From: a virus | IMG/VR virus record: IMGVR_UViG_3300040801_000310 | Span: 1-28,306 of that record | Reading direction: 5' to 3' (one strand) | DNA length: 28,306 nt | In this document: in pieces, positions 7,210 through 8,932 of the stretch | Layout: every line of letters starts with the position of its first letter | How positions within the stretch are numbered: the stretch's first letter is position 1 | The notes under the pieces: model-generated | What the model saw: the letters and a program-made list of their open reading frames with translations, nothing else | Told to the model about the DNA's origin: nothing | The model's database searches: none | Made by a program: the position numbers and the translations under genes

Positions 7210-7286
7210 TGGTCCGGATAGTAGGATTCAAACCTACAACCCCTCCGCCCCAAACGGAGTGCGCTATCAAGTTGCGCTATACCCGG
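7210..7286 (-). tRNA. tRNA-Pro(UGG), copy 2
   Basis: The body is very like bacterial tRNA-Pro: CCGGGTA acceptor, D arm TAGCGCAACTTGATAGCGC, anticodon stem CTCCG/CGGAG, loop TTTGGGG (UGG), T stem GTAGG/CCTAC. CCA is encoded. Its 5' 20 nt overlap the end of the HNH gene at 7267-7848. Confidence 0.88.
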
Positions 7287-7848
7287 ATTGTTTTATATAT
7301 TCATCTACAATATCTCTAATCTCGTCTGCATATACACTATGCATATACTGATGATGTGTGGGGCACATCGGTATTAAATTTAACGGATCGTTATTATTGT
7401 GATCATTGTCATAGTGATGCACCGACACTATCTTATCTTCGCCGCACACTACACAACATTTTTCATGTTGCGAAAAACAAATGGTTCTATATCTGTGTGC
7501 TTTATGATTTCCGTGATCTGTTCCAGATCTAAATACAGTATTAGCACATGCTCTCGAGCAGGTACCTTTGCTGTATTTGTAATTTTTTATTGGTTTATTA
7601 CAATTCTCGCAGTATCGTATATTTACTGGGTTCAAATAACACGATGCCGTATGCTTGTTAATATTACCAGTTGTCATTTGTATGTCACAATACTGACATA
7701 CCCTGTATTCAAATACAGGCGTTGCTCGATTCTCTGGTGCCTTAAAGTACCAGTGAGCCCTAAACGACTTTAATGTTTTAAACACCCGACCGTTTTTTGG
7801 TGATGTGTATGTACCGTCTGTATTCTTATACTTGCTTAAATCACCCAT
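7267..7848 (-). CDS. HNH homing-type endonuclease, 193 aa
   Basis: Cys pairs at about 52-55 (CQYC) and 79-82 (CENC), with C96 and C100, build zinc ribbons. Residues 131-134 (CVVC) and C155, with HHYDNDHNNNDPLN followed by CPTHH, form the HNH nuclease core. Free-standing phage homing endonucleases have this design. The gene ends inside tRNA-Pro copy 2 (20-nt overlap). Just upstream of its start lies a tRNA 5' half with no 3' half (7862-7918). A CATAAATA box sits 5 nt before the ATG without a Shine-Dalgarno, so a leaderless late mRNA is likely. Confidence 0.9.
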   Translation of the reverse strand: MGDLSKYKNTDGTYTSPKNGRVFKTLKSFRAHWYFKAPENRATPVFEYRVCQYCDIQMTTGNINKHTASCYLNPVNIRYCENCNKPIKNYKYSKGTCSRACANTVFRSGTDHGNHKAHRYRTICFSQHEKCCVVCGEDKIVSVHHYDNDHNNNDPLNLIPMCPTHHQYMHSVYADEIRDIVDEYIKQSGYSAT

Positions 7849-8175: not shown

Positions 8176-8180
8176 ATATT

Positions 8181-8254
8181 TGGTACCCCACGATGGACTC
8201 GAACCACCATGATCCGGTAATCGGCCGGAGATCTTCCCATTAGATGAGTGGGGC
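8181..8254 (-). tRNA. tRNA with GAU anticodon (Ile?), C33
   Basis: The acceptor pairs 7/7 with one G-U, the T arm is GATGG/CCACC, and the anticodon stem TCCGG/CCGGA is perfect. CCA is encoded. The loop CCGATTA reads GAU by position, but U33 is replaced by C and base 37 is U. Both are rare in decoding tRNAs. A normal Ile(GAU) is at 6166-6239. Confidence 0.65.
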
Positions 8255-8260
8255 ATTGTT

Positions 8261-8334
8261 TGGCAAACCGTGTAGGAATCGAACCCACGTCTTCTGGTTT
8301 GGAATCAGACGTTCTACCATTGAACTAACGGAAT
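8261..8334 (-). tRNA. tRNA with CCA anticodon (Trp-like, second copy)
   Basis: The loop TTCCAAA reads CCA (Trp). The acceptor has two internal U-U mismatches and the innermost anticodon pair is A-C. The D arm AGTTCAATGGTAGAAC looks Gly-like, so a Gly(UCC) tRNA with one inserted loop base is an alternative. CCA is encoded. Confidence 0.65.
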
Positions 8335-8340
8335 ACTATT

Positions 8341-8424
8341 TGGAGCGGATACAGAGAATCGAACTCTACTCCCGAAGGATCAGGGTGGAAGCCTGACGTC
8401 TACACCAGTTAGACAAGTACCCGC
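8341..8424 (-). tRNA. tRNA-Gly(UCC) with 11-nt UUCG variable arm
   Basis: The acceptor GCGGATA/TACCCGC pairs (one G-U), and the anticodon stem TCAGG/CCTGA is perfect. Loop CTTCCAC gives UCC. The variable region TCCTTCGGGAG folds as UCC-UUCG-GGA, a tetraloop mini-arm unusual for Gly. CCA is encoded. Confidence 0.8.
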
Positions 8425-8430
8425 AGTGTT

Positions 8431-8508
8431 TGGTGCAGCCCCCCGGAATCGAACCGGAATATCGAGTTCTTCAAACTCGCGCAATAGAACCATCTCTGCC
8501 AGAGCTGC
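8431..8508 (-). tRNA. tRNA-Phe(GAA)
   Basis: The acceptor GCAGCCC/GAGCTGC pairs with one G-U. The anticodon stem CGAGT/ACTCG is perfect. Loop TTGAAGA gives GAA. The T arm is GC-rich (CCCGG/CCGGA). CCA is encoded and the discriminator is A. Confidence 0.88.
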
Positions 8509-8516
8509 ATATATTT

Positions 8517-8590
8517 TGGTGCCCAGTGCTAGAATCGAACTAGCGTCATTTGCATGTAAGGCAAGCATTCTACCATTGAAATAACCGGGC
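8517..8590 (-). tRNA. tRNA-Val(UAC), copy 2
   Basis: The acceptor GCCCAGT/ACCGGGC pairs with one G-U. T stem GCTAG/CTAGC is perfect. Loop CTTACAT gives UAC. The outer anticodon pair is A-C. CCA is encoded. Confidence 0.85.
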
Positions 8591-8596
8591 GTTGTT

Positions 8597-8673
8597 TGGA
8601 GGGGCATGTGAGAATCGAACTCACCATTGTTCGGGTTTGCAATCCGATGCATTCGCCAGTCTGCCAATGCCCC
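8597..8673 (-). tRNA. tRNA-Cys(GCA)
   Basis: The acceptor GGGGCAT/ATGCCCC and T stem GTGAG/CTCAC are perfect. Loop TTGCAAA gives GCA. The discriminator is U, as required by CysRS. CCA is encoded. Confidence 0.9.
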
Positions 8674-8681
8674 TTTAAATT

Positions 8682-8764
8682 TGGTGGTAGAGGAGGGACT
8701 CGAACCCCCAACGGGAACGGCGCTTTACAGGCGCGGGCGCTACCAATTACGCTGCTACTCTACC
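8682..8764 (-). tRNA. t RNA-Tyr(GUA), 5' end set by hammerhead
   Basis: The acceptor GGTAGAG/CTCTACC is perfect. Loop CTGTAAA gives GUA. A short extra variable arm is present, as in bacterial Tyr tRNAs. CCA is encoded and the discriminator is A. Its first nucleotide (8764) directly follows the predicted cleavage site of the hammerhead ribozyme at 8760-8809, whose stem I uses tRNA bases 1-5. Confidence 0.9.
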
Positions 8765-8809
8765 TACACCGTTGCGGTGTTTCGTCTCTGATAAGACTCA
8801 TCAGGGTAG
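8760..8809 (-). ncRNA. Hammerhead ribozyme at the tRNA-Tyr 5' end
   Basis: The minus strand shows every conserved core element in order. CTACC is the 5' strand of stem I (8809-8805). CUGAUGA is the core (8804-8798). Stem II is GTCT/AGAC with loop TATCAG. GAA is at 8783-8781. Stem III is ACACCG/CGGTGT with loop CAA (8780-8766), and A17 is at 8765. The 3' strand of stem I, GGTAG (8764-8760), is the first five bases of tRNA-Tyr. The cleavage triplet is GUA (NUH rule). Cleavage after 8765 would free tRNA-Tyr at its exact mature 5' end, with a 5'-hydroxyl, without RNase P. It is an open-stem-I (type I) layout. Confidence 0.9.
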
Positions 8810-8811
8810 TT

Positions 8812-8853
8812 AACTGTATCAGTTGACTTTGCGTCTTTTTAACTAATACAGTT
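8812..8853 (-). ncRNA. 13-bp hairpin between tRNA-Ala and hammerhead
   Basis: AACTGTAT-T-AGTT pairs with AACT-G-ATACAGTT (one U-G), closing a 16-nt loop AAAAAGACGCAAAGTC that itself can form GAC/GTC. It starts 5 nt after the tRNA-Ala CCA and ends 2 nt before stem I of the hammerhead. It has no trailing U-tract. It may insulate the ribozyme fold or be a processing site. Confidence 0.65.
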
Positions 8854-8858
8854 GAATT

Positions 8859-8932
8859 TGGTGGAGGGTAGGGGAATCGAACCCCTGTCAACGACGTGCA
8901 AGGCCGTGGTAATCCCGTTATACTAACCCCCC
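8859..8932 (-). tRNA. tRNA-Ala(UGC)
   Basis: The acceptor GGAGGGT pairs 7/7 with one G-U. T stem AGGGG/CCCCT is perfect. Loop CTTGCAC gives UGC. CCA is encoded and the discriminator is A. It directly precedes the hairpin-hammerhead unit in the transcript. Confidence 0.88.

Follow-up and report, generated by a model that had tools for sequence, protein, structure and literature searches.

We found that, in the genome of a large uncultured phage, a tRNA-Tyr gene is preceded by a putative type I hammerhead ribozyme whose predicted cleavage site coincides with the first nucleotide of the tRNA, and whose stem I would be built in part from the tRNA itself. This is probably a genuine hammerhead fused to tRNA-Tyr, which trims the tRNA 5' end co-transcriptionally and independently of RNase P. 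Candidate fusions of this kind recur in eight or more further phage sequences from the environment, which suggests that the phages carrying them finish their tRNA-Tyr without RNase P. The motif, its position, covariation, recurrence and the order of folding were taken from sequence and calculation, and it is cleavage, the chemistry of the ends and the use in vivo that we infer.

Hammerhead Motif Upstream of tRNA-Tyr

The analyzed window is the whole stretch of 28,306 nt (one strand, positions 1–28,306 of the IMG/VR virus record IMGVR_UViG_3300040801_000310). Its head genes are T4-like, and its capsid protein is 79% identical to the capsids of Pseudomonas jumbo phages MIJ3 and PA5oct. The tRNA array of the window comprises 29 ARAGORN calls, every one on the minus strand, with neighbours around 8180–8770 often only 6–9 nt apart; two HNH endonuclease ORFs (1260–1769 and 7267–7848) are also localized within the array. 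tRNA-Ala and tRNA-Tyr are separated by a 94-nt spacer, which contains a 13-bp hairpin and the hammerhead motif (Table 1). No counterpart of this hairpin was noticed in the other fusions described below.

Table 1. Predicted features of the tRNA-Ala/tRNA-Tyr region of the window.
Feature	Position	Strand	Basis
tRNA-Ala(UGC), upstream in the array	8859..8932	-	ARAGORN
13-bp hairpin between tRNA-Ala and the ribozyme (arms 8853-8841 and 8824-8812)	8812..8853	-	sequence; MFE fold of 8858-8679
Stem I, 5' strand CUACC (CTACC), in the tRNA leader	8809-8805	-	descriptor scan; covaries with the tRNA 5' strand in relatives
Catalytic core C3-A9, CUGAUGA (CTGATGA)	8804-8798	-	descriptor scan, alignment
Stem II hairpin, GUCUUAUCAGAGAC (GTCTTATCAGAGAC); loop can also pair with the core	8797-8784	-	descriptor scan, folding, alignment
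Core G12-A14, GAA	8783-8781	-	descriptor scan
Stem III hairpin, ACACCGCAACGGUGU (ACACCGCAACGGTGT), closing pair A15.1-U16.1	8780-8766	-	descriptor scan, alignment
Predicted cut, A17 (8765) ^ G (8764), GUA site	8764..8765	-	descriptor scan, ARAGORN
Stem I, 3' strand GGUAG (GGTAG), tRNA-Tyr nucleotides 1-5	8764-8760	-	descriptor scan, ARAGORN
tRNA-Tyr(GUA), CCA encoded, odd D-arm, 9-nt variable region	8682..8764	-	ARAGORN, Rfam

Judged by its sequence, the minus strand at 8809–8760 carries a complete type I hammerhead motif, in the order CUACC, CUGAUGA, GUCUUAUCAGAGAC, GAA, ACACCGCAACGGUGU and A^GGUAG. The nucleotides required in the core (C3 U4 G5 A6 N7 G8 A9...G12 A13 A14, and H17, which must not be G) are all present, A being permitted at H17 by the consensus in PMC3088659, and the closing pairs 10.1–11.1 (G-C), 15.1–16.1 (A-U) and 1.1–2.1 (G-C) are intact. 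With stems II and III closed as hairpins and stem I connecting the leader with the tRNA, the topology is that of type I, and the predicted fold agrees in sequence and structure with the definition of this class. The complete core proposed in the initial annotation of this DNA was thus confirmed by the minus-strand sequence and the descriptor scan. Its placement of the cut between 8765 and 8764, at nucleotide 1 of the tRNA, proved correct as well, because ARAGORN independently puts tRNA-Tyr(GTA) at 8764–8682. Stem I comprises only 5 bp, and no tertiary contact between its side and loop II, which is conserved among the tRNA-Tyr fusions, could be assigned.

The acceptor stem of this tRNA-Tyr (GGTAGAG/CTCTACC-ACCA) is perfect and the CCA is encoded; by its appearance, the molecule could equally be processed by RNase P. 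Its D-arm is unusual (an extra base) and its variable region is short; both features are shared with the tRNA-Tyr of L192, L241 and the first copy in L194 (all described below), the variable region in this group having 8–9 nt instead of the usual long arm.

A strict descriptor applied to both strands of the window gave a single match, the 8809–8760 motif. Across 300 dinucleotide shuffles, the loosely set descriptor matched 0.007 times per window, and at the stringency attained by the motif it never matched. The best hammerhead matches in Rfam stayed below the gathering score (RF03152, 20.2 bits, gathering 56.3; RF00008, 14.8 bits, gathering 48.5), as the initial annotation had feared. The gathering score is an operational threshold and not a defining feature of a ribozyme. 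Relatives with unmistakable covariation also score below it (RF00163, 23.2 against 34; RF00008, 32.2 against 48.5), thus the low scores reflect the Rfam models and not an absent structure.

Recurrence in Other Phage Contigs

The IMG/VR sequences were scanned with a pattern that joins a hammerhead core to the downstream T-loop of any tRNA, and in which both the isotype and the exact cut position were left free. The scans indicated nine more hammerhead/tRNA-Tyr fusions, located on eight contigs (L188, L192, L193, L194 (two, in tandem), L200, L213, L241, and L243), each with the predicted cut at nucleotide 1; an additional locus, L196, repeats the L193 fusion sequence identically. Two of the tRNAs, in L241 and in the first copy of L194, were missed by ARAGORN and revealed by acceptor pairing and the T-loop, and the Rfam start of the L241 tRNA coincides exactly with the cut (as L687:2428). 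Capsid identity of the carriers to the window phage ranges from 80% (L194) down to 30–37% or none detected, and the carriers therefore include distinct phage lineages.

Other isotypes were also encountered. In L205 (12183–12323), a hammerhead is located on tRNA-His with the predicted cut at -1, which would leave G-1 opposite C73. tRNA-His needs G-1 in this position, and bacterial RNase P leaves it too. The tRNA-Gly fusion of L211 would be cut one base upstream of the tRNA, and in L620 the predicted cut falls 6 nt ahead of a tRNA-Leu and stem I lies in the leader; this locus was the sole addition from scans allowing longer gaps and non-GG T-loops. L201 and L529 were rejected as fusions, as the sequence downstream is no tRNA.

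tRNA-Tyr is strongly over-represented among the fusions. Within the loci fetched by tRNA-related patterns, a fusion was present in 8 of 43 non-redundant tRNA-Tyr versus 2 of about 1130 other tRNAs (Fisher p 7e-11, a value inflated by the homologous leader common to L192, L193, L200, L213, and L243, because of which the fusions are not fully independent). Upstream of the hammerhead in the same five loci there is a conserved small basic ORF (...KYNTAKVF..RKA.AK.GYRKHK.SLPDESYRGRN...), open through the ribozyme into the tRNA, whose translation could disturb ribozyme folding.

A hammerhead scan requiring G1/U8/A14 after the cut gave many hammerheads, none of them at a tRNA, and the search for hammerheads downstream of tRNAs that could make 3' ends gave no type III at a tRNA 3' end. 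There was no fusion among the matches listed for the same pattern in one genome per prokaryote species, and no extra one among the matches listed for relaxed-core scans. Eight named large phages yielded no match, including with the covariance model, and BLAST of the fusions against named phages returned tRNA similarity only, or nothing.

It could be argued that the main task of the hammerhead is to split a long phage transcript, or to generate the 3' terminus of the RNA upstream, with RNase P maturing the tRNA and the ribozyme being redundant there. Hammerheads located elsewhere than at a tRNA 5' end are indeed common in phages (a contig often has several), they are found at other positions inside tRNA arrays without cutting at a tRNA end (L652, L564, L563, and L569), an ORF stops 8–12 nt before the core in L241 and L211, and processing of long phage transcripts was proposed by Perreault et al. 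in 2011 (PMC3088659). However, we regard this explanation as unlikely, as such a function needs neither a cut at nucleotide 1 nor a tRNA serving as stem I, and it leaves unexplained the ten predicted tRNA-Tyr cuts at nucleotide 1, the predicted tRNA-His cut exactly at G-1 and the preference for tyrosine.

Covariation of the Three Helices

The pairing of leader and tRNA in stem I is preserved throughout. In 12 fusions, 60 of 60 stem I pairs are formed despite 10 different leader pentamers, whereas re-pairing controls averaged 42.5 pairs and never exceeded 55 (0 of 20,000 reached 60). As tRNA nucleotides 1–5 also pair with nucleotides 68–72, this covariation involves three strands. The earlier proposal that stem I is made from tRNA bases 1–5, and is thereby common to the acceptor stem, was strengthened by the compensatory changes in the further fusions, and so were the proposed anatomy and the position of the cut.

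In the alignment of nine sequences (A2), 100% of the cells were paired and two-sided changes occurred in 10 of 16 pairs, with a covariation of 0.60 versus 0.21 for shuffled and at most 0.12 for slid alignments. All three helices of the hammerhead are thus kept by compensatory change. Moreover, when the second L194 copy was withheld from the building of a covariance model, the model recovered it at 62 bits.

Folding Order and Proposed Mechanism

According to the proposed mechanism, stems II and III would fold during transcription of the tRNA array, and tRNA nucleotides 1–5, on emerging, would pair at once with the leader to form stem I. The ribozyme would then cut in cis just before nucleotide 1, generating the mature tRNA 5' end. 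After roughly 70 further nucleotides, the 3' acceptor strand would emerge and displace the leader from nucleotides 1–5, the acceptor stem would close and the leader would be released.

The competition between stem I and the acceptor stem, with the folding order setting the timing, had been claimed before and is supported by calculations on partial transcripts. For the window copy, the pairing probability of stem I was 0.97–0.99 up to +45 nt and 0.83–0.87 to +76, and at +79, with the 3' acceptor strand present, it was 0.02, compared with 0.97 for the acceptor stem. These energetics support the order of events; as stem I loses to the complete acceptor stem, a ribozyme that cuts slowly would come too late. 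In most members, stem I is predicted to be formed once tRNA nucleotide 6 is out (0.81–0.99; 0.50 in L188). In L200 and L213, which have a long variable arm, the computed stem I survives the full tRNA, in a calculation that leaves aside tRNA modification and tertiary structure.

A feature missed in the initial annotation is a potential pairing between loop II (UUAUCAG) and the core (CUGAUGA). The resulting core-sequestering hairpin beats the hammerhead fold by 1.3 kcal/mol in the window copy, where the stem II pairing probability is about 12% in a model which ignores tertiary contacts. This is a warning that the window copy could be slow. The competing hairpin might even point to a decaying relic of a once active ribozyme, in line with the clearly decayed copy before a disrupted tRNA-Tyr in the close relative L683. 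Nevertheless, all core positions and closing pairs of the window copy are intact and stem I fits the window tRNA perfectly, which makes such decay improbable.

With an active hammerhead, the tRNA-Tyr 5' end would be made without RNase P and would bear a 5'-OH in place of the 5'-phosphate. Both the replacement of RNase P and the 5'-OH end are predicted from hammerhead chemistry; PMC5895719 describes the cleavage as yielding a 5'-OH and a 2',3'-cyclic phosphate, and the expected tRNA would therefore differ chemically from the RNase P product. That these two ends serve ligation or circularisation, as in retrozymes, is very improbable, as the two tandem hammerhead-tRNA-Tyr units of L194, from which double cleavage would release a ligatable unit, are just one case and the other arrays have a single unit.

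Comparison with Known Systems and Significance

The fusions share the same core, three stems, predicted chemistry and phage setting with the bacterial and phage hammerheads of Perreault et al. 2011 (PMC3088659; RF00163, RF00008, and RF03152), but differ from them in that stem I is common to the tRNA acceptor stem and the cut would make the tRNA 5' end. That paper reports integrase and prophage contexts and proposes mRNA processing, and the word "tRNA" appears in it only in a reference title. The closest functional relatives are the theta ribozymes (Kienbeck et al. 2024, PMC10879173), likewise small self-cleaving phage ribozymes cutting at a tRNA edge, for which RNase-independent tRNA maturation was proposed. 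Theta ribozymes have an HDV-like fold, remove the 3' trailer and occur in gut phages, where the CCA is seldom encoded (4.5%; PMC10879173), while the fusions analyzed here are hammerheads, would remove the 5' leader and have the CCA encoded in nearly all cases. The window motif itself was rejected as a theta ribozyme, having no HDV-like Rfam match and its cut at the 5' end of the tRNA, not the 3' end.

RNase P is considered to make tRNA 5' ends almost universally. It would give the same 5' position as the fusions, including G-1 of tRNA-His; however, it acts in trans and leaves a 5'-phosphate, whereas the fusion would be a cis-acting RNA from which a 5'-OH is expected. In the literature searched (exclusive of preprints and most subscription journals), we found no hammerhead described at a tRNA 5' end. 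If the proposed mechanism is true, a natural cis-acting ribozyme using the tRNA's own acceptor strand would constitute a second RNA-based solution to making the 5' end, complementing the theta ribozymes and their proposed role at the 3' ends of phage tRNAs. This mechanism would also provide a biological role for one class of phage hammerheads and predict 5'-OH tRNAs in infected cells.

The finding poses the question of why tyrosine is singled out. The Septu system and retron-Eco7 PtuAB cleave the variable loop of tRNA-Tyr (PMC11555353, PMC13096335), and the window-type tRNA-Tyr, with its short variable region, might be a poor target for them; a counter-defence role is therefore possible. We consider it doubtful, though conceivable, that a dedicated RNase P-independent route to tRNA-Tyr, quick and giving a 5'-OH, evolved in some large phages against host systems that destroy this tRNA.

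Other Hammerhead Loci

Several loci with a different organization were recorded in the scanned contigs. In L683:1501–2441 (IMGVR_UViG_3300040801_001572), a decayed hammerhead stands before the 5' half of a tRNA-Tyr. An HNH-like ORF and another tRNA-Tyr, itself intact, interrupt this gene, whose old acceptor 3' strand persists at 2431. This looks like a homing-endonuclease-driven replacement of the tRNA. The contig of L241 has a second strong hammerhead (L687:1501–1664; 64.5 bits). Downstream of it come a helix resembling an acceptor stem (GGGGAAG...CUUCCCC) but lacking a tRNA body, some 80 nt of unexplained sequence and then a tRNA-Met. In L652:7559–7708, a hammerhead is localized 15 nt before tRNA-His, and in L109:2343–8602 about a dozen hammerhead motifs are gathered inside 7 kb of one phage contig.
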